This document shows positions 2,222 to 40,361 of a DNA stretch of 40,385 bases, piece after piece (position 1 is the first letter of the stretch; each line of letters begins with the position of its first letter). The position numbers and the translations under genes were made by a program. The notes under the pieces are model-generated. The model did no database searches. It saw only the letters and a program-made list of their open reading frames with translations, and had not been told where the DNA came from. Source of the DNA: Specibacter cremeus (GTDB taxonomy: Bacteria; Actinomycetota; Actinomycetes; Actinomycetales; Micrococcaceae); the NCBI RefSeq assembly GCF_003946885.1, contig NZ_RWKQ01000046.1:1-40385 (forward strand), read 5' to 3'.

Positions 2222-2244
2222 CCACCACCGACCAGGAAAGCGCC

Positions 2245-16733: not shown

Positions 16734-16794
16734 CGTGTGCTCCTTTTGTCCTGTTGCGGAGTTGGTCTGCAATCAGTATTGGGAGCGGCGTCGA

Positions 16795-24933: not shown

Positions 24934-24940
24934 GGCTACC

Positions 24941-25615: not shown

Positions 25616-26268
25616 GATGCGCCCTTCCGCTGCAGGTTGTGGTAGCCGAACCGGGCACGGGCCTCGGCAATAGTGGCCCCGGCCAGCGCCGCGGCCAGGA
25701 TCGACTCCTCGCGCTCCCCGATCGACTCGGCGATCTCCAGGACCTCTTCCTCGCAGTCACGGGGAATCGCGACGACGCCGTCCGAGTCGCCCAGCAGGAT
25801 GTCACCGGGGCGGACTGTGACGCCGCCGATGGTGACCGGGCCCTGTTCCTCAGCCACCTCGACCCGGTCCTTGCCGGTGCGCATGAAGCGGCCGCGGCTG
25901 AAGATCGGGTAGTTGATCGACAGGGCCCGGTACGTGTCGCGGCAGACCCCCTCGATCACAGTGCCGGAGATGCCGCGGTGGCTGGCGACTGCTGTGAGGA
26001 TGTCCCCCCAGACTGTGCAGTCAACGCGCCCGTCGTTATCCAGCACCACGACCTGGCCCGGCTCGACCTGGTCGATGAAATCGCCAACCGTGCCGGCCGG
26101 GGTCTGTGCGCTGACATACCGCACTGTGAAGGCGCGACCGATCATGTGCTGGTTATCTGCCAGCGGCGCCATGCCCAGCATGCTGCCGGGCCGGCCTAGC
26201 TTGTCCAGCGCGTCAGAGACGGTGGCGGTGCCGAGCTTGGCGAAACGGGTGATGATTGGTTCTGTCAT
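25612..26268 (-). CDS. RraA/LigK-fold protein, copy 2
   Basis: A 218-residue RraA-like protein. The core is WGDILTAVASHRGISGTVIE then GVCRDTYRALSINYPIFSRG. The Arg-Asp pair is kept but the residue at the aldolase-signature acid position is Arg (RDTYR). The N-terminal region FAKLGTATVSDALDKLGRPG is typical of the family. GGAG precedes the ATG, three bases after copy 3 ends. It shares the fold and general pattern with copies 1 and 3 but is clearly diverged from both, so this is an old triplication or separate recruitment, not a recent duplication. Confidence 0.85.
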   Translation of the reverse strand: MTEPIITRFAKLGTATVSDALDKLGRPGSMLGMAPLADNQHMIGRAFTVRYVSAQTPAGTVGDFIDQVEPGQVVVLDNDGRVDCTVWGDILTAVASHRGISGTVIEGVCRDTYRALSINYPIFSRGRFMRTGKDRVEVAEEQGPVTIGGVTVRPGDILLGDSDGVVAIPRDCEEEVLEIAESIGEREESILAAALAGATIAEARARFGYHNLQRKGAS

Positions 26269-26271
26269 GGT

Positions 26272-26940
26272 TTACTCCGCTGTGACAGTGGGGAACTGGG
26301 AATCATGCATGACCTCGCTGACGTCGCGGCCGGCGCGTACCGCCTCGGCCATGCGGGCCTCGCGCTCGACGATCCGCTGGGCGAGCCCGACGACGCGCTC
26401 AGCGTGCTCAGCAGCGACGAATACGACGCCGTTGACATCGGCAATGACGTAGTCATGCGGGGCGACTGCGACGCCGGCGACCTGGATGCGCTCGTCCATG
26501 GCCTGCTGGACGATGCGGCCGCGGGCGCTGACCGATACGGCGTTCCGGGCGTAGAGGCCCAGTCCGAGCGCAGCGCTTTCCTGGACGTCGCGGCAGGCGC
26601 CGTCAACGATGACCCCGGCGATGCCGCGCTGCACAGCCGCCTCGGCGAGCAGTCCTCCCCAGCAGGAAACGTCTCTCCGGCCATGGTTATCGATCACCAC
26701 TACGTCATCGGGATCGGCGCCGGCCACGAGCGAGGTGGCAATGTGGGTTGCTGGCCCCGCACTGGACTTGGGCGCCGCGCTCACTGTACGCACACGTCCG
26801 GCAGTCACGCTGCCCGAGGGCCACATCGGTGCAAGGCCCATCACGGCACCGGGCAGCCCGAGGGTGTCGAGCGCATCCGAGACGGCACAGCTGTCGAGCC
26901 CGCGCAGTGCGGCAATGGTTTCAGCAGGTGTCTGTCCCAT
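26272..26940 (-). CDS. RraA/LigK-fold protein, copy 3, probable CHA-type aldolase
   Basis: A 222-residue RraA-like protein. The core WGGLLAEAAVQRGIAGVIVD then GACRDVQESAALG keeps the complete RDxxE signature reported for 4-carboxy-4-hydroxy-2-oxoadipate/4-hydroxy-4-methyl-2-oxoglutarate aldolases, which split the hydrated ring-cleavage product into pyruvate and a second oxo acid. It lies directly after the LigB-type dioxygenase (two-base gap, AGGA inside the dioxygenase end) and one gene after the LigJ-like hydratase, the order of steps expected in protocatechuate 4,5-cleavage or gallate pathways. Of the three paralogues this is the best aldolase candidate. Confidence 0.87.
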   Translation of the reverse strand: MGQTPAETIAALRGLDSCAVSDALDTLGLPGAVMGLAPMWPSGSVTAGRVRTVSAAPKSSAGPATHIATSLVAGADPDDVVVIDNHGRRDVSCWGGLLAEAAVQRGIAGVIVDGACRDVQESAALGLGLYARNAVSVSARGRIVQQAMDERIQVAGVAVAPHDYVIADVNGVVFVAAEHAERVVGLAQRIVEREARMAEAVRAGRDVSEVMHDSQFPTVTAE

Positions 26941-26942
26941 TC

Positions 26943-27959
26943 CTAGCCACGCTCCCAGACGACGAAGCCCATGGCGTTGCCGGTGCCCGCCTCGGTGCGG
27001 TAGGCCGGCTCGTAGTCGACCTTGGTGACGGAGAGGCCCACCTCGTCGGTGATGCCGGCCACGGCGATCCAGTTGCGCAGTTCAGAGGCACCGGACATCA
27101 TCTCGGAGGCCGGAACGCTGGAGAGGTACTCCGCGTCGTGGTTCCGCATTGCCTCGCAGAACTCGTTGTCGAGCTTCTCATCGATGACGAAGTGGCTGAG
27201 CCCACCGGAGGCGACGACGCCGACGCGCAGGTCACCCGGGAAGGACTGGATCGCCCGTCCCAGCGCACGGCCGAAGTCGTAGCAGCGTTTGGCCGTCGGC
27301 GGGTTCGGCTCCCAGAAGGTGTTGATGAACACCGGGACCATCGGGACCATCGAGTCCTCCCCCATGAACCGCTGATAGATGAAGCCGAAGCCATGCGGAA
27401 TGGTGTGGTTCCCGTAGCGCCCAGCCGGTAGCACCTCGGACGCCGAGACGTCGAAGTCCTCCTGCTGCACGGACTGGATCAGGTGCCGTCCCAGGGCCCG
27501 GTGCGTGGGGCGTTCGATCGGGTGGTCCGGAACGTCGCCCGTGGCCGCCTCGGCCAGGCCCGGCGCCATCGCGTCGAGCTGTTCCTGCGTGTAAGGCACG
27601 TGCTGCACCGAGTCGCCCCAATAGATGGCGAAGGGTGAGAGCAGCTCGTCGCCGTACGTTTCCTTGTGGTCGCTCGAGACGATCACCAGGACGTCGACGT
27701 CCTGTTCCTTGATGAATGCGGACAATTTGTCCATCGAACCCTGGCAGCTGTCCCAGCGGCGCTGCATCACCTCGTGGGTGATCTCGTGCGAGAAGTCCTC
27801 ACGTATTTCGCGCAGTTCTTCGTAGGAGTAGGTGCCTCCGCGGAATTTCAGGTTCTTGCTCTTGCGGTCCGCGACACCACGAGTCTCCCAGGCCGCGGGC
27901 GGTGCTGCCTTGAGTTGTGGGCCGTGCGAGGTGCCGATGCCGGCAACGATCTCGGTCAT
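26943..27959 (-). CDS. LigB-type class III extradiol ring-cleavage dioxygenase
   Basis: A 338-residue non-heme Fe(II) dioxygenase of the LigB superfamily. Expected iron ligands are His12 (GIGTSHGPQLK), a His at 58 or 62 (DFSHEITHEV) and Glu217 (NTFWEPNPPT); the acid/base His is His189 (TIPHGFGFIYQ). No LigA-type small subunit gene is adjacent, and the chain is longer than LigB (about 300) but shorter than gallate dioxygenases (about 420), so the subunit type is between the two. It opens a catecholic or hydroxypyridine ring at meta position. AAAGGA precedes the ATG. It sits between the LigJ-like hydratase and the aldolase candidate, supporting a 4-oxalomesaconate-like cleavage product. Confidence 0.9.
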   Translation of the reverse strand: MTEIVAGIGTSHGPQLKAAPPAAWETRGVADRKSKNLKFRGGTYSYEELREIREDFSHEITHEVMQRRWDSCQGSMDKLSAFIKEQDVDVLVIVSSDHKETYGDELLSPFAIYWGDSVQHVPYTQEQLDAMAPGLAEAATGDVPDHPIERPTHRALGRHLIQSVQQEDFDVSASEVLPAGRYGNHTIPHGFGFIYQRFMGEDSMVPMVPVFINTFWEPNPPTAKRCYDFGRALGRAIQSFPGDLRVGVVASGGLSHFVIDEKLDNEFCEAMRNHDAEYLSSVPASEMMSGASELRNWIAVAGITDEVGLSVTKVDYEPAYRTEAGTGNAMGFVVWERG

Positions 27960-27983: not shown

Positions 27984-28985
27984 CTACAGTCGGAACAGCT
28001 TGCGGGCGTTACCTTCGAAGACGGCCTCGCGGCCCTCCGTCTCAAGCCAGTCGATGTCGTTGATGAGCAGGTGGATGTCGTCGAACCAGCGGCCGGTCTC
28101 GGGATCGATCTGCGAACCGGTGCCCGGCTTCTCCGAGCCGAACAGCACGCGGTCGGTGCCGACGACCTTCATCAGCAGTTCGAGGCTGTCCTGGGTGTAC
28201 AGGCAGGAGTCGAAGTACAGGCTGCGCAGCTTGTCGAGGTAGGAGACGCCGGTGCGCACCACAGAGGGGAGGAAGCGGCCGACCTGATACGGGATGGCAC
28301 CGCCGCCGTGCGAGACGATGACCTTCAGGTCCGGGAAGTCCTTGAGCACGTTTGAGTTGATCAGGCTCCAGATGCCGACAGTCTCCTCCTGGATGAAATG
28401 CAGGCTGTACGGTTCGCGTGCCGGTGGCTTGCATCCGGCGGCGTGGATCAGCACCGGGACGTCCAGTGCACAGAGTTCCTCGTACACCGGGTACCAGTAC
28501 TCGTCGCCGAGCGCCGGCGGGGCCTGCATACCCTCGTGCGGGTCCGGGTTCAGCATGGCGCCGACAAAACCCAGCTCGGTGACGGTGCGGCGCAGTTCCC
28601 TGGTCCACTGTGCCGGGGTGAAGTCCGGGCTCTGCGGCAGTCCGGCGACGCCCTTGAAGCGGCCCGGGAAGAGTTCGGTGGTGCGGTAGATCAGGTTGTT
28701 CGTCTCTTCGGTGAACCAGTCAACAAGCTTGGCCGGGCGCTCGCTGTGCATCATCTGGAACGGGCGCGGCGAGATCAGCTGCAGGTCGATGCCGGCCTTG
28801 TCGATGTGCTCCATGTGCGAGATGTTCCCGAAGCTGGGGTGCGGCTCATGGTACGAGGCGATGAGCGCATCGTCGCTGATGACCGGCGGCTTTCCGCCGT
28901 GGGCGCCGCGGTGCGAGAGCAGCGAGGCCTTCCAGGCGTAGTAGTCGTTCGGGGCTGACATGTGTCCGTGGACGTCGATGATCAT
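27984..28985 (-). CDS. LigJ-like hydratase (amidohydrolase-2 family)
   Basis: A 333-residue TIM-barrel metalloenzyme closest in pattern to LigJ, 4-oxalomesaconate hydratase. Metal ligands line up with those described for LigJ: His6 and His8 (MIIDVHGHM), His181 (VLIHAAGCK) and Glu285 in LFGSEKPGTG, where decarboxylases and hydrolases of the family have Asp. VSHGGGAIPYQVGRFLPSVV also matches the LigJ HGGGAVPY stretch. It would add water to an unsaturated tricarboxylate from ring cleavage, giving the substrate of the RraA/LigK-type aldolase. A related decarboxylase activity is the alternative, but the Glu argues for hydratase. It lies 24 bases before the dioxygenase in the same operon. Confidence 0.87.
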   Translation of the reverse strand: MIIDVHGHMSAPNDYYAWKASLLSHRGAHGGKPPVISDDALIASYHEPHPSFGNISHMEHIDKAGIDLQLISPRPFQMMHSERPAKLVDWFTEETNNLIYRTTELFPGRFKGVAGLPQSPDFTPAQWTRELRRTVTELGFVGAMLNPDPHEGMQAPPALGDEYWYPVYEELCALDVPVLIHAAGCKPPAREPYSLHFIQEETVGIWSLINSNVLKDFPDLKVIVSHGGGAIPYQVGRFLPSVVRTGVSYLDKLRSLYFDSCLYTQDSLELLMKVVGTDRVLFGSEKPGTGSQIDPETGRWFDDIHLLINDIDWLETEGREAVFEGNARKLFRL

Positions 28986-29018: not shown

Positions 29019-30494
29019 TCAGGCGCCGGCGAGGGCCGGGTCATTCAGCGGGGCGCTGATCAGCTTCTCAACGCGAGCGTCGATGGCCGACGTGTCGTAG
29101 GTGCGCAGCAGTCGAGTGCGGCCGGCTCCCGGATCCCCTCGGTGCAGGTATTCGTAGAGTTCCTGGCGCATGCCGAAACCGGAACCGGCGAGTTCCCAGC
29201 CGAGTCGGAACAGGCGGGCCTTCTCGGCGGCACCGATGTCGTGTCCGCGCATGTAGAGGTCGAGGAATGGGCGCAGCTCGGGGCTGGCCAGGTCCGCCTC
29301 GGTCGGCTGCATGATCAGGCCCGAGGCGGCGATCTGGCGCATGATCTGGACCATGCGCGCTGAAATGTCGGCTGACCAGAAGCCCAGTCCGTTGCTGTGC
29401 GCGGGGACCAGGTGTCCCGCCGGGCTGAAGCCGGAGTCTGCCTCCGCGCCCTTGATGCCGAGCTCGAGCGTCTGGGCGTAGGAGACGAGCTCGCCGAGCT
29501 GCTCCTGAATGCCGCGGAAGGTGTCAACGCCGATGGCGTGGGCGAGCTTCTTGGCGACCGAGGTGAAGAACTTCATGCGGGCCAGGAAGCGGATGTGGGT
29601 GCTTTGCAGGCTCCAGGCGTTGATCCGGCCCAGGCCTTTGAGGGCGCGCAGGCTGTCCCCGAGCAGGAAGATGCGTTCGCGCGGCAGAAAGACGTCGTCG
29701 AAGAACAGCATTGCGTCCTGCTCGTCGTACTTGTTGCTCAGCGGGTGGCTGTGGCCGCTTTCCGGGTTCCCGAGCGGTTCGCGCAACAGGATCTTCAGTC
29801 CGGGTGCGTTCATCGGCAGCGCGAACCAGATGACGAAGTCCTCGGCGCCGCGGGCGGCCGTCACCCCGTTGAGGTAGACGAGCACCTCGTTGGAGAACGG
29901 GGCAAGAGTCGCCAGCTGCTTCGCGCCGCGCAGCACCACGCCGTCCTCGCGTTCCTCGACGACGCGCAGCGCCAGGTCGGGATCGTCGAGCGGGCTGGCG
30001 CCGCGATCGATCTGCGGGTCACCGAGCGCGTGCGTGAGCACGAGGTCGTTCTCCATCGCATAGCGGTGGTAGTTGCGTGCGTTCCGACCGAAACCCGGGC
30101 GGTTCCCCTCGAGCTCGTCCGCGTAGTCGACGAGGCCGGCGACGACGTTGGACATGAAGTCGGGCGAGCGGCCGAGCTGGCCGAGGCTCTCGTTCATCCA
30201 CCACTCCGAGGCGGCGAACTTCGCGCGCAGCTCCTGCTTCGTCTTCGGAAGCGAGAATGCGCAGCTGACCTGGTTGCCGGTCTCCGCCGACTCGAAGAGC
30301 GTGGTGGCCCGCGTTTCGGCCGTCTCGAAACGCAGGTCCAGCAGGCGGGCGAATTCGTCGACTGTTGGCTTGAGGGCGGGATGTTCGGCAACGTTGTCGA
30401 TGCGCTTCCCATCCAGCCACACATCGCGGCCGTCGTTCAGGCTCCGTTTGAATTGTTCGCCGGTCATAGCACCCGTCGAGCCGGAAATATCCAT
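29019..30494 (-). CDS. HpaB-family flavin-dependent oxygenase
   Basis: 491 residues from ATG 30494, preceded by AAGGAG; the open frame to 30698 has no homology and crosses a large palindrome. It is a group D flavin monooxygenase with the opening MTGEQFKRSLNDGRDVWLDG, then the central domain HPLSNKYDEQDAMLFFDDVF and the helical C-terminal region. First gene of the eight-gene operon. Its likely reductase is the flavin reductase-FCD protein six genes downstream. It differs strongly from the HpaB-type protein at 14620 (for example, the central and C-terminal segments), so the two serve different substrates. It probably installs the hydroxyl that makes the substrate competent for extradiol cleavage. 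Confidence 0.9.
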   Translation of the reverse strand: MDISGSTGAMTGEQFKRSLNDGRDVWLDGKRIDNVAEHPALKPTVDEFARLLDLRFETAETRATTLFESAETGNQVSCAFSLPKTKQELRAKFAASEWWMNESLGQLGRSPDFMSNVVAGLVDYADELEGNRPGFGRNARNYHRYAMENDLVLTHALGDPQIDRGASPLDDPDLALRVVEEREDGVVLRGAKQLATLAPFSNEVLVYLNGVTAARGAEDFVIWFALPMNAPGLKILLREPLGNPESGHSHPLSNKYDEQDAMLFFDDVFLPRERIFLLGDSLRALKGLGRINAWSLQSTHIRFLARMKFFTSVAKKLAHAIGVDTFRGIQEQLGELVSYAQTLELGIKGAEADSGFSPAGHLVPAHSNGLGFWSADISARMVQIMRQIAASGLIMQPTEADLASPELRPFLDLYMRGHDIGAAEKARLFRLGWELAGSGFGMRQELYEYLHRGDPGAGRTRLLRTYDTSAIDARVEKLISAPLNDPALAGA

Positions 30495-30606
30495 CGTCTG
30501 ACTCCTTACTTCTGCCGCTCGACTCCCGCGTCGGGCAGACCAATAATCTGTAATTCGACAGTATGTGAACCCGTCTTGCAGAAGATCAGCTGGCTGCGGG
30601 AATCTC

Positions 30607-30645
30607 GCGCTGCCCGTTCCGACACGGTGTCGGAACGGGCAGCGC
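30607..30645. promoter_or_regulatory. 39-bp palindrome, arms of 19 bp, upstream of the HpaB operon
   Basis: The left arm GCGCTGCCCGTTCCGACAC (30607-30625), one central G and the exact complement (30627-30645). Its core CGACACGGTGTCG recurs at 38497-38509, also 110-160 bases upstream of an operon start in this cluster. Near-absence of a loop and of a T-run fits an operator. A terminator for readthrough from the aldehyde dehydrogenase gene is equally possible. Confidence 0.5.
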
Positions 30646-30687
30646 TCACCTGTTTTCGGGCCCTCCCTGGCACGCAAAAGGCGGGGC

Positions 30688-30707
30688 CGGGCTGCCAAAA
30701 CAGCCCG
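30688..30707 (-). other. Small stem-loop CGGGCTG-N6-CAGCCCG
   Basis: A 7-bp GC-rich stem with loop CCAAAA, between the aldehyde dehydrogenase terminator and the 39-bp palindrome. It may reinforce termination. Too short to call on its own. Confidence 0.3.
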
Positions 30708-30727: not shown

Positions 30728-30766
30728 GCCCTCGAGCGCGGGGCGAATCACCCCGCGCTCGAGGGC
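30728..30766 (-). terminator. GC-rich hairpin straddling the aldehyde dehydrogenase stop
   Basis: A 16-bp stem (GCCCTCGAGCGCGGGG at 30728-30743 with its complement at 30751-30766) and a 7-base loop. Part of the stem lies in the last codons of the aldehyde dehydrogenase, and the stop codon is in the loop/stem border. No T-run follows, but the stem is very stable. Confidence 0.65.
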
Positions 30767-32196
30767 ACCGTCACCCACTGCCAGAACGTGAACTCGTCAA
30801 GGTTCCAGTGCCCGCCGTGCCGGCCGCCGTTGCCCGAAGCCCCCAGGCCGCCCATCGGGATGTGGGCCGCGTCGTAGATCGTCTGGCCGTTGAGCGCGAC
30901 CATGCCAGCGCGCAGCCTGGAAGCGAACCCCAGTGCCCGGGAGATGTCCCGGCTGTGGATCGACGCCGAGAGCCCGTATGCGCTCTCGTGTGCGAGCTCG
31001 AGCGCCTCTTCTTCCGTGGCAAAGCGGGTCACCGGTGCCACCGGGCCAAAGATCTCCTGCTGGAATGCCACATTGCCGGCGTCGACGCCTTCGAGCACGG
31101 TTGGCTGGTAGAACGCGCCATCGTGCGTGCCGCCCTGCACGATCCGCGCCCCGCCGGCCACCGCGTCATCGACAATGCGTTGCACACGCTCCGCCTGCGT
31201 CTGGTTGATAAGCGGGCCAAGGGTGACGCCCTCGCCGAGCGGGTCGCCGACACGCATCTTAGCGGCGGCCGCACCGAGTCGCGCCACGTACTCATCGGCG
31301 ACGCTCTCGTGCACAAGGTGGCGGCCGGTGGCCATGCAGATCTGCCCCTGGTGCCGGAAGCTGCCGGCAACCCCGTTCGCCACAGCAACGTCTAGGTCTG
31401 CATCACGCATCACGATCGCCGCGTTGTTGCCGCCGAGTTCCAGGATCACGCGTTTCATCAGGCCTCCGGCGACCTCACCCACGCGCTTGCCGGCCACAGT
31501 GGAGCCAGTGAAGGCGATGACGCTCGTGTGCGGGGAGCTGACAAGCGCTTCCCCCGTGTCCGGCCCGCCCGGAAGGATGTGCAGGAGGTCCCGCGGAAGT
31601 CCTGCCCGCTCGAAAATTTCCGCGATGACGGCGCCGCCGGAGAATGCCGTTTTCACATCCGGTTTCACGATTACCGCGTTGCCCAGGGCAATGGCCGGGG
31701 CCACCGAGCGCATGGCGAGCATGAGCGGTGCATTCCATGGGGCAATGACACCGACGACGCCCACCGGGACGCGACGGGCCAGGCCCAGCACGCTCGGGTC
31801 CTCCACCGGGAGGATGTCGCCCTGCGACAGGGTGACAAGGCTCGCCGCCGCGATGAGTTCGTCGATGGCCTTGTCCACCTCGTGGGCTGCCTTGGTCGGG
31901 AGCGAACCGCTTTCGCGCACGAGCACGAGCTCGAGATCGGCCCGCGTCTCGCGCAGGACAGCAGCGGCTCGGGTCAGCACATCGGCGCGTTCGCGGTACG
32001 GGGCCCTGCCCCAAACCACTTGTGCCTCGGCGGCGAGAGCACCGGCACGTTCCACATCATGCCCATCGGCGATGCCGATCCGTCCGATGGTGCCGCCGTC
32101 GCCCGGCGAGGTCACCTCAAGCACTCCGCCGCCGCCCTCGCGCCAGCCGCCCGAGTAGATGCGGCCCTCGGCTTCGCCCAGATCCCAACGATTCAT
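30748..32196 (-). CDS. Aldehyde dehydrogenase family protein
   Basis: A 482-residue NAD(P)-dependent aldehyde dehydrogenase, closest in style to benzaldehyde/vanillin or semialdehyde dehydrogenases. GVVGVIAPWNAPLMLAMRSV lies by the cofactor site, FTGSTVAGKRVGEVAGGLMK is the Rossmann segment, ILELGGNNAAIV carries the general-base Glu and FRHQGQICMATGRHLV the catalytic Cys. AAGGA precedes the ATG. Hairpins at both ends (32221-32249 and 30728-30766) suggest it is largely transcribed alone or at a different level from the flanking operons. It could oxidise an aromatic aldehyde entering the pathway or a ring-cleavage semialdehyde, as LigC does by other chemistry in the 4,5-pathway. Confidence 0.92.
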   Translation of the reverse strand: MNRWDLGEAEGRIYSGGWREGGGGVLEVTSPGDGGTIGRIGIADGHDVERAGALAAEAQVVWGRAPYRERADVLTRAAAVLRETRADLELVLVRESGSLPTKAAHEVDKAIDELIAAASLVTLSQGDILPVEDPSVLGLARRVPVGVVGVIAPWNAPLMLAMRSVAPAIALGNAVIVKPDVKTAFSGGAVIAEIFERAGLPRDLLHILPGGPDTGEALVSSPHTSVIAFTGSTVAGKRVGEVAGGLMKRVILELGGNNAAIVMRDADLDVAVANGVAGSFRHQGQICMATGRHLVHESVADEYVARLGAAAAKMRVGDPLGEGVTLGPLINQTQAERVQRIVDDAVAGGARIVQGGTHDGAFYQPTVLEGVDAGNVAFQQEIFGPVAPVTRFATEEEALELAHESAYGLSASIHSRDISRALGFASRLRAGMVALNGQTIYDAAHIPMGGLGASGNGGRHGGHWNLDEFTFWQWVTVPSSAG

Positions 32197-32266: not shown

Positions 32267-32650
32267 CTAGATGGAAATGATGACTTCGCCGTCCTCCACG
32301 CGAACGGGAACCGACCGAAGCCCCACCCGCTGGTCCGCCGGATGCTTGCCGGTGAGCACGTCGAACTCAAATCCGTGCCACGGGCAAACGATGTTGCGGT
32401 CGGTGGGGTGGAAACCCGGGCCGCCGCTCTTGCGGTCGCCCACCACCAGCTGCACGGTGCGTGGCATCATCTTGCCCTGGCATACCGGTCCGCCCGAGTG
32501 CGGGCAGACGTTGGACCAGGCGCGGACCTTGTCGGCGTAGAAGTACAGGCCGACCTCGGTGCCGTCCGCGTCAACGACGATGCGCTCGCGCTCCTTGAGA
32601 TCCTCAAGCTGCGCGACGACGAAGTCGCGCTTCTGTTTGGTCGCGCTCAT
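32267..32650 (-). CDS. Rieske [2Fe-2S] protein with an extended inter-ligand loop
   Basis: A 127-residue soluble Rieske ferredoxin-like electron carrier. Cluster ligands are Cys49-Pro-His51 and Cys89-Pro-Trp-His92, followed by GFEFDVLTGKHPADQ. Between His51 and Cys89 there are 37 residues, against about 15-17 in ordinary Rieske ferredoxins, an insertion of roughly 20 (around MMPRTVQLVVGDRKSGG). No oxygenase alpha subunit of the Rieske type is near, so it does not belong to a standard ring-hydroxylating dioxygenase. Its ATG overlaps the stop of the 102-residue protein (ATGA), which follows the amidohydrolase by one base. The three are translationally coupled, implying that it feeds electrons to that pair. 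No ferredoxin reductase gene is present. Confidence 0.9.
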   Translation of the reverse strand: MSATKQKRDFVVAQLEDLKERERIVVDADGTEVGLYFYADKVRAWSNVCPHSGGPVCQGKMMPRTVQLVVGDRKSGGPGFHPTDRNIVCPWHGFEFDVLTGKHPADQRVGLRSVPVRVEDGEVIISI

Positions 32651-32955
32651 TCCGCCCTCCTGAACCAGATCGCCATGTCAAAGAGATTGATGTCGGCCGC
32701 GTCGAGCAGGGCCGTCACCAGGACAACCGTCTCGGTGGCGTTCAGGGCGTCCGGCGTGATCGGCCAGGCGAGCTTGCCCACGCGGTCGGTCTTGGCGGAG
32801 AAGAGCCGCGCCGCTGCGTAGAGCACGTCGGCAATCTGCTTATCCGACACGTCGGCGGCGAGCTGCTGCTCGGTGACCTGGCGTGTCAGTTCGGTCAGTC
32901 GCTCAACCGTCTCGGAGAGTTCGGTCAAGGTGTCTTTGGTGGTCACAGTAGTCAT
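32647..32955 (-). CDS. Small protein of unknown family between amidohydrolase and Rieske genes
   Basis: 102 residues, not recognised. The sequence suggests an all-helical protein: an N-terminal amphipathic stretch rich in Thr, Glu and Leu (TLTELSETVERLTELTRQVT), a middle part VSDKQIADVLYAAARLFSAK and a hydrophobic C-terminal helix ending NLFDMAIWFRRAE. No Cys, no metal motif, no signal peptide. The start is one base after the amidohydrolase stop and the stop overlaps the Rieske start, so translation of all three is linked, as expected for subunits made in fixed ratio. It may be a small structural or effector subunit of an oxygenase complex. Function unknown; real gene judged by coupling and codon pattern. 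Confidence 0.8.
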   Translation of the reverse strand: MTTVTTKDTLTELSETVERLTELTRQVTEQQLAADVSDKQIADVLYAAARLFSAKTDRVGKLAWPITPDALNATETVVLVTALLDAADINLFDMAIWFRRAE

Positions 32956-32956
32956 G

Positions 32957-34222
32957 TCAGGAGATCCCGGGTCGTTCCTGGAGCACTTGCTCCGCTGATG
33001 GCTTCATTCGGTCGGTGGGGAGGTTGAACACCCGTGCGGCATTGAGCCCCAGGATGTTGCGCTTGGCCTGTTCGGAGAGGAACGGCAGGTCCGTAATGGT
33101 TGACGGGGAATCCCAGTCCCAGTGCGGCCAGTCGGAGGAGTAAAGCAGCTGGGTCTCGGCATTGAAGGCCTTCATCGTCGCCTCGAGCAGCTCCATGTTG
33201 TTGCGCTCCATCGGCTGGGTCGAGTAGTACATTTCCTTCATGTACTCGCTCGGAAGCTTGGTGAGCCCCGGCGCCTCACTCGGACGCATCAGCACCTCGT
33301 GGTCCAGGCGCTGCATCAGGAACGGAATCCAGGCAAGGCCGCTCTCAACCCAGATCATCTTGATCTTCGGGAAGCGTTCGGGCATTGCGTTGATGATCCA
33401 GTTGGTCACGTGGATCTGGTTGTAGTGCGTGAAGGAAAGCGCGTGCATCGACAGGAACCGGTTCAGCTGCGCGAACGACGGGTCGCCCCAGTGGTATCCC
33501 GAGTGGAATGCCAAGGGCTTGCCGCTCTCCTCTATCAGCGAGTACAGGCGGGTGTAGACATCGGAGTGCACGGGGTTGTTGCGCGTGGAGCACACGGTGT
33601 ACCCGATGATTCCGGGGTGGTCCGCGTACTTCTCGACGAGCTCTTCACAAACCTCGGGGGTGTTGTACGGCAGGTACAGCATGCCCTTCAGCCGCGGGTT
33701 CTTCGGCAGGATGACCTCGGTAAGCCAACGGTTGAAGGCGCGTCCCAGGACAACTTCGATCTCCTCCTGGGGGTGCATGCCCAGCAGCAGCATCGCGCTG
33801 GGGAAGACCACCTGGTAGTCAAGGCCCATGGCGTCCATGCCGCGCTTGGCGGCGGTGACGAACGGGTGGCCTTCGGTGCCCTCGACGGGTTCCTTGCGGC
33901 CCTGGTGCCCGATACGGCCGCCTACACTCTGGTGGGACAAACCCGGGGAGATGTTCAGCAGGGCGTTGTTGCCTGCGAACTTGTCAAATTGGTCCATGCC
34001 GATTTGCTTCCACACATCGTTGTCAATGAGCTCGAGCACCTCGCCCCAGAACTGGTCTTCTGAGACGTGGGCGTCAATGTCGACAATGAAGTAGTCGTCG
34101 AACTTCTCCTTCGCCTGCTTTGTCGCGTGCGCCAGGACATCTCGCGTGTCCGTGCGCCCACTGATTTCCGCAAGCTCGCGAACGAGGCCCTCGTCGGACT
34201 TGAGGCCGGTCATTTGACTCAT
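32957..34222 (-). CDS. ACMSD-type amidohydrolase, possible catalytic part of an oxygenase
   Basis: A 421-residue TIM-barrel protein of the amidohydrolase-2 family. The usual HxH reads Asp50-Ala-His52 (IVDIDAHVSE). Other likely ligands are His240 (AFHSGYHWGD), possibly His271, Glu293 (IWVESGLAWIPFLMQRLD) where decarboxylases have His, and Asp364 (SSDWPHWDWD). AAAGGA precedes the ATG. Family members are mostly decarboxylases or hydrolases, but PtmU3 of platensimycin biosynthesis is a diiron oxygenase from this superfamily. Translational coupling to a small protein and a Rieske protein suggests an oxygenase here. It follows the ABC importer genes in the same operon, so it probably takes the imported compound as substrate. 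A plain decarboxylase is the alternative. Confidence 0.82.
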   Translation of the reverse strand: MSQMTGLKSDEGLVRELAEISGRTDTRDVLAHATKQAKEKFDDYFIVDIDAHVSEDQFWGEVLELIDNDVWKQIGMDQFDKFAGNNALLNISPGLSHQSVGGRIGHQGRKEPVEGTEGHPFVTAAKRGMDAMGLDYQVVFPSAMLLLGMHPQEEIEVVLGRAFNRWLTEVILPKNPRLKGMLYLPYNTPEVCEELVEKYADHPGIIGYTVCSTRNNPVHSDVYTRLYSLIEESGKPLAFHSGYHWGDPSFAQLNRFLSMHALSFTHYNQIHVTNWIINAMPERFPKIKMIWVESGLAWIPFLMQRLDHEVLMRPSEAPGLTKLPSEYMKEMYYSTQPMERNNMELLEATMKAFNAETQLLYSSDWPHWDWDSPSTITDLPFLSEQAKRNILGLNAARVFNLPTDRMKPSAEQVLQERPGIS

Positions 34223-34253: not shown

Positions 34254-35420
34254 TCAGCGGGGTGCAACAAGTGCACTGGTCTTCGTTGTCAGGAATTCGT
34301 CGCTCTGCGGCTCTTCACGCTGGATCACATCAATCACCACGGCGCGTGCCGGATTCACCGAGAAGCCGAGTCGGTCGCCGACGGCCGGCATTTCGTCGAT
34401 GCGTAGATCTGACGTTTCAAGTCGTACGCGCAGCGGAAGTCCATCCGCGCGGATCAGCAGGTTCGTGGCGTTGCCCAAGTACGTGGTGCGCTCGACGATG
34501 CCTTCGAATCGGCCGGGGTCGCTCGTCGCATCCGCATGCACGCGAATGTGCGCGGCGCGGAAAGCGACGTTGACCCGGTCCCCGAGGGTCGCCCGGGTGG
34601 TTGTCGTGCCGCTGACTACCAGTGACGTCTCGTCGATCTTGACATCTGCAATGCCGTTGTCCACGCCAACGACTTCTCCGGGGAGAATGTTTTGGAATCC
34701 CATGAAGTCGGCCACGTAGGCCGAGTTCGGTCTGTCGAACAGTTCGGCAGGCGAGCCGTCTTGCATGATCTCGCCCTCGTTCATCACGACGATCCGGTCC
34801 GAAAGCGTGATCGCTTCCTCCTGGTCATGGGTGACGTATACGGAAGTCGTCTCGAATTGGTCGTGCAACGAGCGGACCTGCTGGCCCAGCTGGTAGCGCA
34901 ACTTGGAATCGAGGTTGGAGAGGGGTTCGTCGTAGAAGATGATGCCCGGCCGGGCGGCCAGGGCGCGAGCGAGAGCCACGCGCTGCTGTTGGCCACCCGA
35001 CAGGGCGGTCACCTGACGCTTTTCGTAGCCGGCCAGGCCGACTGCGTCGAGCATCTCGTGAACCCGCTGCTGACGGTCCTGGCTTCCGAGTCGTGCGACC
35101 TTGAGGGGGTACGCGACGTTTTCGGAAACGCTCATGTGAGGCCACAGCGCGTAACTCTGGAAGACCATGCCAACCTTCCGCTTGTCCGCGGGCACGAAGA
35201 CCCCGCGTTCGGTGTCGACCACGGCCCGACCACCCATGGTGATCGTGCCGGTGGTTGGTCGCTCGAGGCCGGCAAGGCAGCGCAGCGTTGTCGTCTTGCC
35301 GCAGCCCGAGGGGCCGAGAAGCGTGACAAATTCTCCGGGTGCGATCTGCAAGTCGAGCCCGTGGAGGGCCAGCTTGCTGCCGTACCGTTTGGTCAACCCA
35401 GAAACCAGGACTTCAGTCAT
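34254..35420 (-). CDS. ABC transporter ATP-binding protein, PotA/FbpC type
   Basis: A 388-residue ATPase of the iron/polyamine/phosphonate importer class. Walker A is GPSGCGKTT, signature LSGGQQQR, Walker B IIFYDEPLSNLD and switch His in YVTHDQEEAITLSDR. A C-terminal TOBE domain starts at about residue 280 (GDRVNVAFRAAHIRVHADAT). It powers import through the two-domain permease at 36587. It starts 20 bases after the binding-protein gene and ends 31 bases before the amidohydrolase. Only a weak ribosome site is visible before its ATG, suggesting coupling to the upstream gene. Confidence 0.92.
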   Translation of the reverse strand: MTEVLVSGLTKRYGSKLALHGLDLQIAPGEFVTLLGPSGCGKTTTLRCLAGLERPTTGTITMGGRAVVDTERGVFVPADKRKVGMVFQSYALWPHMSVSENVAYPLKVARLGSQDRQQRVHEMLDAVGLAGYEKRQVTALSGGQQQRVALARALAARPGIIFYDEPLSNLDSKLRYQLGQQVRSLHDQFETTSVYVTHDQEEAITLSDRIVVMNEGEIMQDGSPAELFDRPNSAYVADFMGFQNILPGEVVGVDNGIADVKIDETSLVVSGTTTTRATLGDRVNVAFRAAHIRVHADATSDPGRFEGIVERTTYLGNATNLLIRADGLPLRVRLETSDLRIDEMPAVGDRLGFSVNPARAVVIDVIQREEPQSDEFLTTKTSALVAPR

Positions 35421-35440
35421 TTCTGATCGATACTCTCTTC

Positions 35441-36565
35441 TCAGGACTTCTTGAACAGCTTGGTGATGTAATCGAAGTACGGCGCGTTGAATTTCGGGTC
35501 CGGGTTCGCGAACGGGAGGTGCTTGAGCTCAGCGAGCGGCGGCGCTCCGGCCGGGCCAGGTGCCGTGGGAAGCACCCCGTAGGACTGGTTTTTCTCGCCA
35601 AGCGCGTCCTGGCCCTCCTGGGTGAACAACCAGTTCAGGTAGAGCGAAGTGGCGTCAGGGTGCGGCCCATCCTTAATCTGGCACAGACCCGAGCGCGACA
35701 GGAAGTTCCCGCCGTCATCAAGCGGGAAGACCATGTTGAGCGGCGCGCCCTTGCTCTTCTGGCCATCATAGAAGCCCGAGTAAACACCGATGCCGATTGG
35801 GAATCGACCGCTTGCCACATCAGAGGGCACGGTCGGCTCGGACTGGCTGAAGTTCAGATCCTGCTTGGCCAGCTGCTCCATGAACGGCTTGCCCCACTTC
35901 GCCTCGGTTTCTGGGAGCATCATCGAGGTGACGATGTATTGCATACCGCCGGGCACCGTCGGGTCGCCGATGAGAATCTTTCCCTTCCACTTGGGATCGA
36001 GCAGATCGTGCCAGGACTTCGGGGCTTCCTCCTTCGTCACCATGTTGGTGTTGTAGACGAAACCAAAGTATCGGTAGGCGAAGAGCAGCAGCTTTCCGTC
36101 GTTTTGGGCGGGAACCTTGAAACCAGCGGGGGTGGTTTGGATATCGACAGGCGTGCAGATGTTGTCCTTTGCCGCGGCCTGGGGCGATTCACCACCAATA
36201 TAGAGGTCCGCGATGCGGTTCCCGCTCGCGGCCTCAACATCGAGCTTGGTCAGGGTCTGCGCGTCCGCCTGATCCTGCGGCACGATCTTAATGCCCGGGA
36301 AGCGGTCAAGGAACACCTGGTTCAGGGCCTTGTTTGCGCTCGGGGAGGGCCCGTACATGACGATATCCGTCTTGCCGGAGGACAGCGCTTCCTGATAGAG
36401 CTTGTTCATGAACTCGTTTGCCTTAGCCGAGGCGCCGGGCACTTCAACCGGGGCGCCGCCCGCCTTGACTTCGGGTGCCCCGGATGAACATGCGGTGAAT
36501 GCGAGCGAGCCAACCAGGGCGAACCCGAAGGCCGTCATCAATTTATTGCGGTAGAACATCGTCAT
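35441..36565 (-). CDS. ABC transporter substrate-binding lipoprotein, FbpA/PotD-like
   Basis: A 374-residue extracellular binding protein. The lipoprotein signal (residues about 4-25, GFALVGSLAFTAC) ends at Cys26. Body motifs LNQVFLDRFPGIKIVPQDQA and SWHDLLDPKWKGKILIGDPT are typical of the Fe3+/putrescine/2-aminoethylphosphonate group. The tyrosine pair used by ferric-binding proteins near the C-terminus is not evident, so iron is unlikely. In this cluster the ligand is presumably the aromatic acid or a conjugate. GAGGAAG precedes the ATG; ATG two codons later is an alternative start. Confidence 0.9.
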   Translation of the reverse strand: MTMFYRNKLMTAFGFALVGSLAFTACSSGAPEVKAGGAPVEVPGASAKANEFMNKLYQEALSSGKTDIVMYGPSPSANKALNQVFLDRFPGIKIVPQDQADAQTLTKLDVEAASGNRIADLYIGGESPQAAAKDNICTPVDIQTTPAGFKVPAQNDGKLLLFAYRYFGFVYNTNMVTKEEAPKSWHDLLDPKWKGKILIGDPTVPGGMQYIVTSMMLPETEAKWGKPFMEQLAKQDLNFSQSEPTVPSDVASGRFPIGIGVYSGFYDGQKSKGAPLNMVFPLDDGGNFLSRSGLCQIKDGPHPDATSLYLNWLFTQEGQDALGEKNQSYGVLPTAPGPAGAPPLAELKHLPFANPDPKFNAPYFDYITKLFKKS

Positions 36566-36586
36566 TCTTCCTCTCGGTTGTGTGTA

Positions 36587-38359
36587 TTAGGACGCAATGT
36601 GGGTCAGGGACGATACACCAGTCGGTGCCTTGCCGGCGCGGCGCTGGATACGGTTTGCGAAGTACATCGACAGGCCGGAAAGTACGGCGACGGCGGCGGC
36701 CGCAATCAGGATGACCATGAACAACGCCGCACCGCCGGACATGTCTCCCACCAGGAACATCTGGAATGCGGTCTGCGAGACGGGCTGCAGGCCGGGAGGT
36801 GCAAGCAGCATCGGGATGGCAAGGTTGCCGGATATAAACAGCATGGACAAGAACCAGCCGGCTAGGAAGCTCGGCACCACCAGGCGCAGCACAATGGTCA
36901 CTAGGACGCGCAGGGCGTTCGCGCCGGAGGTGCGGCCGGCTTCCTCCAGTTCCGGGGAAAGCTGTGCCAGTGCGCCTTCGGCGATCCTGCTCGAGAGCGG
37001 GATGGTGCCGACGACGAGGACCAGGATCATCAGCGTCGCTGTGCCATACAGCCCGCGCGTTGCCGGGATCGAGAGCACGGCGAAGAGGTAGGCAAGGGCC
37101 AGTACGATGCCGGGCAGTGCCCAGGGAATCCAAACGGCAAGCGAGGTGTACGACTTGATGAACCCGCGGCGGCGAAGCACCACATAGCTTGTCACCAGGG
37201 CAGCGCACATCGAGAGGAGCCCGCCCAGGATCGACATCCAAGCGGTCAGCGTCAAGCTCGAGCTGAGCTGGGGGTCGGTGAGCACACGCACATAGTTATC
37301 AAGCGTGAGCCCGGTGCTCATCACGCCGAAAATCGGCTGGAGGCTGCCCAGCACCATGGCGAACAGCGGCAGCAGGAAGTTCAGCACCATGAACAGCACG
37401 ATGACGATGGAGAAGACCCAGCGGACCGGGCCAAGCTCTTGCGGTTCGCGTCGCGAGGTCTTGCCCGTGAGCGTGGTGAAGTTGCGTCCGCGGAGCATCC
37501 ATCGCTGCAACAGGAAGAGCAGGATCACCAGGACGATCAGCACCAGTGACAGCGCAAACCCGGCCGTGTATTTGCCGGGCGTCTCATCACGAATGTAATG
37601 ATAGATCTGCGTCGAGAAGACGTAGATGCCTGCCTGCCGCCCAATCAGCTGCGGGGCATCGAATGCCTGGAAAACCAGCACCATGATGAGAATCGCGGCG
37701 CCGGATATTGCTGGGCCGATCGATGGAACCGTAATCGTGAAAAAGGTTCGCAGCGTCCCCGCTCCACTGATCTGCGCGGCCTCGTCGAGTGACTGATCGC
37801 GATTCTTGAACGCACCAAGCATGAGCAAGTAGGCAAACGGCATGTAGCCCAGCGACATGAGTAGACAGAGGCCGCCCCAGGACTGGATATTCATGATCGA
37901 TCCCTCGATCCCCAGGGTCCGCGCGAACTGATTGAGCAACCCGTTCTGCTGGTTTCCGAGCATCAGCCATCCGAAGGTGTTAAACAGCGGTGGCACAAAG
38001 AGGTTGATGACCATCAGCGGAGTCAAGAGACGCCGGCCCGGCACGTTGGTGCTGGCGGCGATCCATGCGAAAAACCCGCCGCCCACCGTCGCGATTGTGC
38101 CGCAGACGAGCACCAGAATTATCGAGTTGCTCAGCGTGGTCCACGTATCCTCAGAGGTGACGGCCTGGACGAGGCCTTCCATGGTGAACGGCATCTTCTG
38201 CGAGGGAAGGCCGTCACGGAATGCGCCGATGACGATCATCAGCACGGGATAGACGAAGATCACCGTGAGTGCCATGAGGAAAACACTCCACATGGCACCG
38301 CTCGTGATGGAGCGCCGTGCTGAGGCCCGCCGGTCAGCGAGCAGGTCCATATCAGGCAC
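36587..38359 (-). CDS. ABC transporter permease with two membrane domains, FbpB type
   Basis: A 590-residue protein containing two fused permease domains. Domain 1 is about residues 15-285 and domain 2 about 310-570, each with roughly six TM segments (for example WSVFLMALTVIFVYPVLMIV and WVFSIVIVLFMVLNFLLPLF). Each has a cytoplasmic loop resembling the EAA motif: DEAAQISGAGTLRTFFTITV and EEAGRTSGANALRVLVTIVL. The start is GTG at 38359 with AAGGG upstream; ATG 38350 is an alternative. First gene of the operon that runs through the binding protein, ATPase, amidohydrolase, small protein and Rieske gene, tying transport to the first catabolic step. Confidence 0.9.
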   Translation of the reverse strand: MPDMDLLADRRASARRSITSGAMWSVFLMALTVIFVYPVLMIVIGAFRDGLPSQKMPFTMEGLVQAVTSEDTWTTLSNSIILVLVCGTIATVGGGFFAWIAASTNVPGRRLLTPLMVINLFVPPLFNTFGWLMLGNQQNGLLNQFARTLGIEGSIMNIQSWGGLCLLMSLGYMPFAYLLMLGAFKNRDQSLDEAAQISGAGTLRTFFTITVPSIGPAISGAAILIMVLVFQAFDAPQLIGRQAGIYVFSTQIYHYIRDETPGKYTAGFALSLVLIVLVILLFLLQRWMLRGRNFTTLTGKTSRREPQELGPVRWVFSIVIVLFMVLNFLLPLFAMVLGSLQPIFGVMSTGLTLDNYVRVLTDPQLSSSLTLTAWMSILGGLLSMCAALVTSYVVLRRRGFIKSYTSLAVWIPWALPGIVLALAYLFAVLSIPATRGLYGTATLMILVLVVGTIPLSSRIAEGALAQLSPELEEAGRTSGANALRVLVTIVLRLVVPSFLAGWFLSMLFISGNLAIPMLLAPPGLQPVSQTAFQMFLVGDMSGGAALFMVILIAAAAVAVLSGLSMYFANRIQRRAGKAPTGVSSLTHIAS

Positions 38360-38521: not shown

Positions 38522-39571
38522 TCAGCCGAAGACGGCAAGTGCTGCGTCATTCTCGGCGGGTGCCCCAATGGTGATGCGGACGCCGCCGGCATGCGGGAAG
38601 GGGCGCGACATGACGCCCCGGGCCTCGAAACTCCGGGTCAGGTCGGCCACGTCGCCGTGGATGAACACGAAGTTCGACTGGGTCGGCAGGTGGGAGACGC
38701 CCGCGGTGCGCAGCGCAGCAAGGAATCGCTCACGCTCCGCGACGATCTCCCCGACACGCGCCTCGGCGATCGCCAGTCCCGCCGGGCTGAATGCTGCAAT
38801 GATGGCGGCTTCTGCCACCGAGTTCAGGGCGAATCCGACGGAGCTGCGGCGAAGCCCGAGCGCGATCGGTTCCTGGGCGATGACGTAGCCCGCACGGACC
38901 CCGGCGAGCCCAAAGGATTTGGACAACGTCCGCACGATGGCGAGGTTCCCGAACTCGCGCACGAGGGCAATGGTTTCCGAGGCCGACTCGGCCGTGACGA
39001 ACTCGCGGTAGGCCTCGTCCAAGACAACCAGGATGTTTTCGGGAACGCTGTCCATGAAGTCCCGGAGTTCGTCGATGCCAATGAAGCCGCCGGTGGGGTT
39101 GTTGGGGTTGCACACGTGCACCAGCCGGGTCGACTCGTCGATCGAGGCACGCAGCGCCGCGAGATCCATGGCACCCTCGGCGTTGAGGTCGGTCGGCGAG
39201 GGGGTGCCGCCGGCGAGGGAGACGGAGGCGGGGTAGGCCTCGAAGGACGGCCACCCGTAGACGGCATTCTTGCCCGGTTCGATGACGAGCCGGGCCAGTC
39301 CATGTAGCAACGATCCCGAACCGTTATCCACTGCCACCCATTCGGCCGGGACTCCCGCTGCATCGGCGACTGCGGCGCGGGCCGCAGTGCGATGGTAGTC
39401 GGGGTAGCGGTTGACCGTCTGGAGCGCTTCGATCATGGCGTTGAGCACCAGCTCAGGGGGGCCCCACGGCAGCTCGTTCTGGGACAGTCGGATCGGCGTG
39501 GGTGCGTTGCGCTTGGGCCGATCCGGGGTGGCCGTCATCTTGTCAATCACACTGCGGAATTCAAGCGTCAT
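38522..39571 (-). CDS. Histidinol-phosphate aminotransferase-like (HisC family) aminotransferase
   Basis: A 349-residue fold-type I, class I/II PLP enzyme. ATG 39571 is chosen because GAGGAG lies before it; an upstream ATG at 39598 adds nine residues over the AT-rich promoter side. The PLP lysine is in RTLSKSFGLAGVRAGYV, the PLP-phosphate and ring contacts in NGSGSLLHGL and NPNNPTGGF, and LDEAYREF holds the Asp and Tyr. No other histidine genes are near, so a biosynthetic HisC is unlikely; it may transaminate an aromatic or other amino acid into the cluster's pathway. It stands upstream of the transporter operon with a 162-base gap carrying a palindrome, and has its own AT-rich promoter region. 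Confidence 0.88.
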   Translation of the reverse strand: MTLEFRSVIDKMTATPDRPKRNAPTPIRLSQNELPWGPPELVLNAMIEALQTVNRYPDYHRTAARAAVADAAGVPAEWVAVDNGSGSLLHGLARLVIEPGKNAVYGWPSFEAYPASVSLAGGTPSPTDLNAEGAMDLAALRASIDESTRLVHVCNPNNPTGGFIGIDELRDFMDSVPENILVVLDEAYREFVTAESASETIALVREFGNLAIVRTLSKSFGLAGVRAGYVIAQEPIALGLRRSSVGFALNSVAEAAIIAAFSPAGLAIAEARVGEIVAERERFLAALRTAGVSHLPTQSNFVFIHGDVADLTRSFEARGVMSRPFPHAGGVRITIGAPAENDAALAVFG

Positions 39572-39599
39572 GCGGCTCTCCTCGTGAAGGCTAAACATT

Positions 39600-40305: not shown

Positions 40306-40361
40306 AGGGTTTGCGAAATTATGACTTAGGATTTTGGTTCGTGTCCCCTTAAACTCGTGCC

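Follow-up and report, generated by a model that had tools for sequence, protein, structure and literature searches.

The window analysed here, the whole 40,385-nucleotide stretch of contig NZ_RWKQ01000046.1 from Specibacter cremeus (assembly GCF_003946885.1), carries on its minus strand a trio of open reading frames (ORFs) encoding an amidohydrolase-superfamily protein (hereafter AHS), a small helical protein and a Rieske protein (Table 1). We consider it quite probable that this trio represents a separate clade of the amidohydrolase-related dinuclear oxygenases (ARO), in which a Rieske-fed, two-metal AHS hydroxylates a C-H bond with O2 and in which the small four-helix protein is non-catalytic, regularly required and most likely a coupling or docking component. 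The combination of an ARO with a Rieske partner is of a kind already known, and an oxygenase built on an amidohydrolase fold is not new as such; the novelty is the clade with its small helical partner. The class was named in PMC10811679 (papers are cited here by PMC number and drawn on from excerpts), and its published members are AibH2, SfbO and PtmU3 (PMC7782822, PMC10401708, PMC10811679).

An ARO-type oxygenase candidate and its Rieske partner

The initial annotation had proposed that the three genes are translationally locked together, and the ORF coordinates bear this out: a single base (32956) separates the AHS gene from the small gene, which in turn overlaps the Rieske gene by four bases (32647-32650, ATGA). 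Pfam detects only Amidohydro_2 in the AHS, and NCBIfam gives no match. In a phmmer search of the PDB the nine best chains all come from ARO entries, led by 8SM7 (2.1e-35), SfbO (7.9e-27) and AibH2 (5.2e-23), followed by 8SM9 and 8SM8 and ending with PtmU3 (5.1e-12) and the AibH1 subunit; the top-scoring decarboxylase ranks below these nine, at 2.8e-8. Likewise, when the AlphaFold2 model of the AHS (predicted local distance difference test score, pLDDT, 83.2) was compared with known structures by Foldseek, ranks 1 to 21 among the best 50 of 1118 matches were all ARO entries (8sm6 with E 4.6e-19), and human ACMSD came 22nd.

The predicted metal ligands of the AHS (Table 1) correspond to those of AibH2, namely Asp25, His27, His211, Glu265, Asp337 and His340, with Asp342 in the second sphere (PMC7782822). 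D50, H52, H240, E293, D364, H367 and D369 are invariant in 51 aligned sequences, window included, and the same seven residues (DHHEDHD) are invariant in 60/60 trio-clade sequences of a wider alignment. The initial annotation had described the DxH pair and Glu293 as a non-standard site and had named a lack of an iron-binding site in modelling as evidence against an oxygenase. The residues stand, but as the published ARO signature they are not non-standard, and the complete dinuclear ligand set of AibH2 is found. A site of the decarboxylase or hydratase type, taken from that annotation as HxH with His in place of Glu293, is not seen, D50-x-H52 and E293 being invariant. In five AibH1-like second subunits of the wider alignment the equivalent of Asp369 is Gln or His, in agreement with the description of AibH1 as lacking the acidic second-sphere residue (PMC7782822). 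Among the distant rows of that alignment the full ligand set is present in 16/31; in 14 the first two positions are unaligned, several of these being trimmed rows, and one row ends in Asn. Not every distant relative is proven to be an ARO.

Identity of the AHS to the AibH2 chains is about 19-23% in Foldseek alignments, which are not global, and the published survey used a cut-off of 24% (PMC10401708). Judged from sequence and model, the AHS thus appears to be an ARO in almost all of its computable features, with an identity to AibH2 at or below the published cut-off. Taken together, the ligands, the PDB ranks and the conservation of the trio (below) uphold by homology the initial proposal of a metal-dependent oxygenase on an amidohydrolase fold served by a Rieske protein. 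Its further claim that the enzyme depends on iron fares less well: the oxygenase part holds by homology, whereas an iron-only cofactor is unsupported, AibH2 and SfbO being described as functioning best with Mn/Fe. The ARO class is recent, and neither its structural determinants nor its choice of metal is settled (PMC10811679).

The Rieske protein has its cluster ligands in the pairs C49-x-H51 and C89-x2-H92, with 37 residues between the pairs, and all four ligands are invariant in 30 aligned sequences. Textbook dioxygenase ferredoxins have roughly 17 residues between the pairs. The loop is 36-39 residues long in 89/90 Rieske frames of trio loci and 31-38, mostly 32, in 62 Rieske frames from loci of more distant relatives (some overlapping). 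The enlarged loop noticed in the initial annotation is therefore real when set against textbook ferredoxins, but it is a family trait and not special to the protein of the window.

A clade with a small helical third component

A search of genome contigs found 313 AHS relatives, the best 80 of which were used for locus counts. A match to the small-protein profile adjoins the AHS in 75/80 loci, and 78/80 have a Rieske gene no more than 4 kb away; the two that lack one (L065, L075) stand at the end of a contig. The small gene had been expected to be lost where none adjoins the AHS (five loci), but in 4/4 searched genomes whose listed locus lacks it the small protein is encoded elsewhere, and the fifth locus, L075, is at a contig edge. 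Of those four genomes, two carry another, complete trio (L197, L198), and the remaining two are metagenome-assembled genomes (MAGs) of Rhodospirillales with the gene arrays described below. The small protein was likewise found in 15/15 trio genomes searched, out of 16 chosen. Two gene orders occur, AHS-small-Rieske and Rieske-small-AHS, with the small gene in the middle wherever all three are present. Given these conservation counts, the arrangement is far beyond chance.

Trios were also found on plasmids. Plasmid pAA01 of Aminobacter aminovorans encodes an AHS 77.5% identical to that of the window, a small protein 51.5% identical over 65% of the length and a Rieske protein, with a comparable pathway encoded downstream, and plasmid records of Neorhizobium, Mesorhizobium and Salipiger hold Rieske-small-AHS triads. 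A haloarchaeal plasmid has an AHS and a Rieske gene without the small gene.

Two contrast sets separate close from distant relatives. An AHS relative is present in 35/396 actinobacterial genomes, and loci were taken from 30 of these 35, window included: the small protein is encoded at 5/5 close non-window loci and at 0/24 distant ones, 20 of which have a Rieske gene. In the proteobacterial sample, where 15/398 genomes carry an AHS relative, the corresponding counts are 5/5 close loci (one of them from the already-known centre genome) and 0/25 distant loci; 21 of these 25 (some overlapping) have at least two AHS frames side by side, as in AibH1H2. Over both samples the small protein is absent from 49/49 loci of more distant relatives (some overlap). 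The co-occurrence of the three families, which the initial annotation had put forward as a check, is thus confirmed by the counts at the 80 loci and by the contrast sets. In a tree of 80 AHS proteins built by a quick method, 44 trio rows and the five rows without an adjacent small gene form one clade (Shimodaira-Hasegawa-like approximate likelihood ratio test, SH-aLRT, 100) on a stem of 1.25 changes per column, and the earliest branch of the clade already has the small gene. The distant rows themselves are placed with less certainty, some of their branches being long.

The small protein of the window is modelled with confidence as four helices (residues 6-29, 38-59, 73-87 and 91-101; pLDDT 88.3). 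It stays below the cut-off of every Pfam and NCBIfam family that it touches; Foldseek returned nothing better than E 4.9 from the PDB, where small helical folds can escape this method, and the best profile match in the PDB, at 0.46, is unrelated. The unrecognised small helical protein of the initial annotation is borne out in both respects. Weak hits of its relatives to CENP-H in Pfam (3/51, best 1.4e-4) and to SecE in NCBIfam (4/51, best 1.1e-3) were taken as chance, as were further scattered family hits of one or two members each. The same Foldseek and profile values give no sign of homology to the effector proteins MmoB or TmoD, and are silent on functional likeness. No Cys or His reaches 90% conservation in the alignment, and the small protein is the fastest-evolving of the three components. 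The ARO texts PMC10811679, PMC7782822 and PMC10401708, in the excerpts drawn on and apart from their figures, make no mention of a third small protein.

In the two Rhodospirillales MAGs one Rieske gene and one small gene stand with four or five tandem AHS genes (L194, 10692-16505; L195, 4108-11129), and all AHSs of these arrays have the full ligand set. A single small protein would thus seem to suffice for several oxygenases, and this points to a general coupling, docking or assembly role as against a substrate-specific one. The small protein is probably a shared coupling subunit. On the side of the AHS, a clade-specific loop (residues 83-110), modelled with low confidence, has Gly102 and Arg103 in 60/60 trio-clade rows and may be a candidate docking site. 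Small genes that no AHS directly adjoins are found in the same genomes (L194, 4543-5091, with a Rieske gene; L195, 14972-15352; and L196, where neither AHS nor Rieske was detected in 9 kb); given such lone copies, the small protein may have additional partners.

How does the trio compare with known systems? In bacterial multicomponent diiron monooxygenases a four-helix diiron oxygenase is joined by a small cofactor-free effector (MmoB, TmoD) and, in some, by a Rieske ferredoxin; the trio resembles them in outline, its small protein being without a fold match in the PDB. The alpha-aminoisobutyrate monooxygenase AibH1H2-AibG-AibF of Rhodococcus wratislaviensis (PMC7782822, PMC10401708) has in common with the trio a PF04909 catalytic subunit, the same six ligands and second-sphere Asp, an adjacent Rieske protein and an importer in the cluster. 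AibH2, however, is partnered by a second, mononuclear amidohydrolase, AibH1, and by a dedicated flavin mononucleotide (FMN) reductase, AibF, whereas the trio has the small helical protein instead of AibH1. Pairing of the AibH1H2 type is not seen in the window, where a single AHS stands beside the Rieske gene and the operon's other PF04909 protein resembles LigY. SfbO and the 'TruffO' proteins (PDB 8SM6-8SM9; PMC10811679), likewise in an operon with a Rieske gene, are the nearest solved structures by sequence and fold; they are shorter (351-388 residues) and 19-25% identical to the AHS in fold alignments. PtmU3 (6OMP), the beta-hydroxylase of the platensimycin pathway, has the same fold and dinuclear site and is found at Foldseek rank 21, but it takes diterpenoid substrates bound to coenzyme A (PMC7782822) and is a remote relative.

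Neighbouring genes and a possible reaction

Clustering of the neighbours of 86 AHSs finds a thiamine pyrophosphate (TPP) enzyme at 37 loci, an aldehyde dehydrogenase at 25, a HisC-like aminotransferase at 18 and parts of an ATP-binding cassette (ABC) importer at up to 35. The trio-linked TPP enzyme matches NCBIfam PRK08266 above its cut-off; the next family, PRK07524 (2-oxo-acid decarboxylase), is below it. A TPP enzyme lies within 10 kb at 39/64 loci with the small gene versus 0/23 without (Fisher 5e-8, on related rows: among the 64, L036 and L184 are the same place and several Microbacterium, Amycolatopsis and Neorhizobium loci are near-identical, and the 23 include two trio-clade loci, L041 and L052). 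After dereplication to 28 rows that extend 6 kb or more to either side, window excluded, the TPP enzyme is present in 14, with eight changes on the tree, and its gene takes several positions relative to the trio; this speaks for a repeated functional association. At L051, L054 and L055 a 2-hydroxyacid oxidase gene and the TPP gene precede AHS-small-Rieske, L078 adds an aldehyde dehydrogenase, and L197 has two 2-hydroxyacid oxidases and a TPP enzyme beside its trio. The L054 oxidase is of the lactate/mandelate type, its best NCBIfam match being L-lactate dehydrogenase, below cut-off.

A 2-hydroxyacid oxidase, a 2-oxo-acid decarboxylase and an aldehyde dehydrogenase are steps of a mandelate-type route. 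Since the neighbours match this route, the simplest reading is that the trio would form a 2-hydroxy acid by hydroxylating the carbon beside a carboxylate, which agrees with the aliphatic C-H hydroxylation by AibH2. We therefore put forward, tentatively, that the product is a 2-hydroxy acid or another feed for a 2-oxo-acid decarboxylase and that the trio starts an oxidative shortening of acids by one carbon, perhaps of the aryl-acetate type. A brief literature search on bacterial alpha-hydroxylation of phenylacetate gave nothing relevant. The earlier suggestion that breakdown of the imported substrate begins with the trio is not supported, as the aminotransferase and the decarboxylase in the same neighbourhood allow other orders.

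The Afipia type of locus (L066, L070, L071, L073, L077, L079, L087) has its trio about 5-9 kb from a three-gene molybdenum hydroxylase and a NIPSNAP protein, mostly together with a cluster-10 amidohydrolase; these neighbours point to a different substrate.

Table 1. Positions of the trio, its predicted metal ligands and the surrounding genes in the window
Feature	Position	Strand	Evidence or remark
AHS, candidate catalytic oxygenase subunit of the ARO class	32957..34222	-	421 amino acids; PF04909 3.4e-18; top ranks in PDB phmmer and Foldseek; ligand set DHHEDHD
Predicted metal ligands Asp50-x-His52	34067..34075	-	AibH2 Asp25, His27
Predicted metal ligand His240	33503..33505	-	AibH2 His211
Predicted metal ligand Glu293	33344..33346	-	AibH2 Glu265
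Predicted metal ligands Asp364 and His367, second-sphere Asp369	33116..33133	-	AibH2 Asp337, His340, Asp342
Small four-helix protein, unnamed family, clade-specific third component	32647..32955	-	102 amino acids; model, co-occurrence
Rieske [2Fe-2S] ferredoxin, putative electron donor	32267..32650	-	127 amino acids; PF00355 6.5e-12
Aldehyde dehydrogenase	30748..32196	-	PF00171 1.4e-146
HpaB-type two-component flavin monooxygenase	29019..30698	-	PF11794, PF03241; 2yyk 1.4e-80
LigY-like C-C hydrolase, amidohydrolase superfamily	27984..28985	-	6e6i 1.1e-102; HxH site by eye, not ARO
LigB-family class III extradiol dioxygenase	26943..27959	-	PF02900 4e-20; 1b4u 1.1e-9
Three successive RraA-family aldolase-like genes	24941..26940	-	PF03737 in all three
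ABC importer	34254..38359	-	ATPase 34254-35420, solute-binding protein 35441-36565, fused permease 36587-38359
HisC-like (PRK03321 subfamily) aminotransferase	38522..39598	-	NCBIfam NF002878 1e-94, below cut-off

Co-transcription of the trio with the ABC importer is plausible, because the AHS gene starts 31 bases past the end of the ATPase gene. The listed genes from the aminotransferase (39598) to the third RraA gene (24941) all share the minus strand. Where gene starts are firm, neighbours are at most 162 bases apart, a maximum reached ahead of the permease gene; the run is plausibly one long catabolic operon. The real start of the HpaB-type gene is probably 3' of the listed TTG. The aminotransferase gene upstream of the importer is kept in Microbacterium-type loci and belongs to the cluster found at 18/86 loci (cluster 8). 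In the PDB search the LigY-like hydrolase matches 6e6i better than 4-oxalomesaconate hydratase (7.5e-64), and the extradiol dioxygenase is, we assume, possibly LigZ-like. These downstream genes suggest that a substituted catechol acid would undergo extradiol cleavage, with C-C hydrolysis and aldol cleavage as further steps, the pathway logic of lignin-dimer catabolism. Gene roles in a pathway of that type are given in PMC12997858.

The window lacks the trio-linked TPP enzyme. The TPP enzyme at 2218-3855 was considered as its ortholog and rejected, being at most 33% identical to the cluster; a 72% identical ortholog lies close to the beginning of a different contig from this genome (G000:C67:1-6400, L189), next to ORFs that match, in the same order, the GntR regulator and a further regulator of the Microbacterium locus, and to another ORF that is an aldehyde dehydrogenase by eye. 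At the end of the window (39904-40329) is a transposase fragment (DDE_Tnp_1_assoc, 1.2e-19), presumably of ISAs1. Among 295 genomes sampled from the family an AHS is present in one, that of the window itself, and the closest relatives among the best 80 of 313 are in Microbacterium (up to 89%) and Amycolatopsis (up to 88%); horizontal acquisition is therefore likely.

Three further modules were observed in the window. The minus-strand gene at 23941-25032 encodes a fusion of a flavin reductase domain (residues 52-198) with an FCD ligand-binding domain (235-355), in which no DNA-binding domain was detected; the protein is possibly a ligand-gated reductase for the HpaB-type monooxygenase. The minus strand at 14620-16772 holds a second HpaB-type monooxygenase gene, with a score under the NCBIfam cut-off, and a flavin reductase gene that overlaps it. 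The third module is on the plus strand (1220-3855), where the TPP decarboxylase-like gene mentioned above (PRK07524, below cut-off) has its start overlapped by a D-2-hydroxyacid dehydrogenase gene; it is a further 2-hydroxy-acid module and no ortholog of the one linked to the trio.

Electron flow, alternatives and meaning

In the proposed mechanism, an unlinked host reductase would supply electrons to the Rieske protein, which would hand them on to the AHS subunit and its two-metal centre (Fe2 or Mn/Fe); this centre would activate O2 and hydroxylate a substrate C-H bond. The small four-helix protein, predicted to be non-catalytic and regularly required by the clade, would most likely couple or dock the Rieske protein and the oxygenase, and several oxygenase paralogues of one genome could share it. 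In the window the product of the trio would lead into aromatic breakdown by the HpaB, extradiol, LigY-like and RraA-type enzymes. The operon contains no dedicated reductase and none recurs among the approximately 20 annotated of the 45 most frequent neighbour clusters; the host genome encodes several unlinked flavoprotein candidates.

A number of points weigh against this mechanism or against the alpha-hydroxylation that we attach to it. Within the window no reductase is linked to the trio, identity of the AHS to ARO chains is just 18-25% in fold alignments, and the activity is carried over from the known AROs across the long branch (1.25 changes per column) that separates them from the trio clade. 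In genome G1102 two of three small genes have no AHS directly alongside (L195, 14972-15352, and L196), and G1101 has a second Rieske-small pair away from its AHS array. As to the reaction, 14/28 dereplicated loci show no TPP enzyme within reach; the association with a 2-hydroxyacid oxidase is by itself not significant (6/64 versus 0/23, Fisher 0.33); and the L054 oxidase matches two long L-lactate oxidase chains (2.7e-91, 3.3e-88) better than (S)-mandelate dehydrogenase (8.9e-83). The molybdenum hydroxylase and TctC-type binding protein near the Afipia trios fit the chemistry of N-heteroaromatic rings better.

The last point leads to the alternative that the trio hydroxylates a ring carbon of an aromatic or N-heteroaromatic substrate. 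The four-component systems PicB1-4, acting on 6-hydroxypicolinate, and HpoBCDF, acting on 2-hydroxypyridine, hydroxylate N-heterocycles, and the trio would group with them; the initial annotation had already mentioned them as possible relatives. The components picB1B2B3B4 are named in PMC10142695, in which PicB2 is 47% similar between two genera against 60-80% for the other Pic proteins; it is thus fast-evolving, as is the small protein of the trio. The Afipia-type trios near a molybdenum hydroxylase fit as well. Yet no lower-pathway genes of the pic type were recognised among the approximately 20 most frequent annotated neighbour clusters, and the recurrent neighbours are a TPP decarboxylase and aldehyde dehydrogenases, so that we regard ring hydroxylation as somewhat unlikely. 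A little less likely still is that the small protein helps to assemble the dinuclear site or acts as its metallochaperone, and is not a coupling subunit in turnover. This would suit a protein of which one copy can serve several oxygenase paralogues and of which lone copies exist away from any AHS, but the small gene stands between oxygenase and Rieske genes in both arrangements where all three are present, and no Cys or His is conserved at 90%.

Two alternatives deny the hydroxylase itself. The first takes the AHS for a plain hydrolase or decarboxylase and assigns the Rieske protein to a different oxygenase in the operon. The PF04909 annotation and the HpaB-type monooxygenase and extradiol dioxygenase would allow this, but it is highly improbable: HpaB-type enzymes use a flavin reductase, for which Flavin_Reduct genes are present, the trio is kept across loci without LigY or LigZ genes, and the AHS ligand set differs from that of decarboxylases and, by eye, from that of the LigY-like paralogue. 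Extradiol-type ring cleavage needs no external electrons, yet the trios retain their Rieske gene, and the operon already has a separate extradiol dioxygenase; we thus give very little credence to an O2-dependent ring-cleaving AHS, even though Arthrobacter KpiC, an amidohydrolase-family 3,4-dihydroxypyridine dioxygenase, makes ring cleavage possible in this superfamily (PMC7356986).

Returning to the Rieske-fed hydroxylase with its small partner, a more speculative extension, which we consider possible but doubtful, is that the clade represents a third ARO architecture besides the 'single' (SfbO) and the 'paired' (AibH1H2) ones. Its AHS would depend on a new family of small helical coupling proteins that do the job of MmoB with an unrelated fold; a single small protein together with one Rieske protein would power sets of oxygenase paralogues; and the clade would start an oxidative alpha-shortening of acids by C-H hydroxylation, oxidation and TPP-dependent decarboxylation. 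If the clade needs a dedicated small protein, it would offer a clean test of how electron delivery is coupled to O2 activation in a TIM-barrel oxygenase, and, if true, the same coupling problem would have been solved a second time by an unrelated small protein. The recurring TPP decarboxylase, lactate/mandelate-type oxidase and aldehyde dehydrogenase neighbours point to a concrete substrate class, and the tandem arrays, with one small protein, one Rieske protein and four or five oxygenases, would offer matched substrate specificities on one electron supply.

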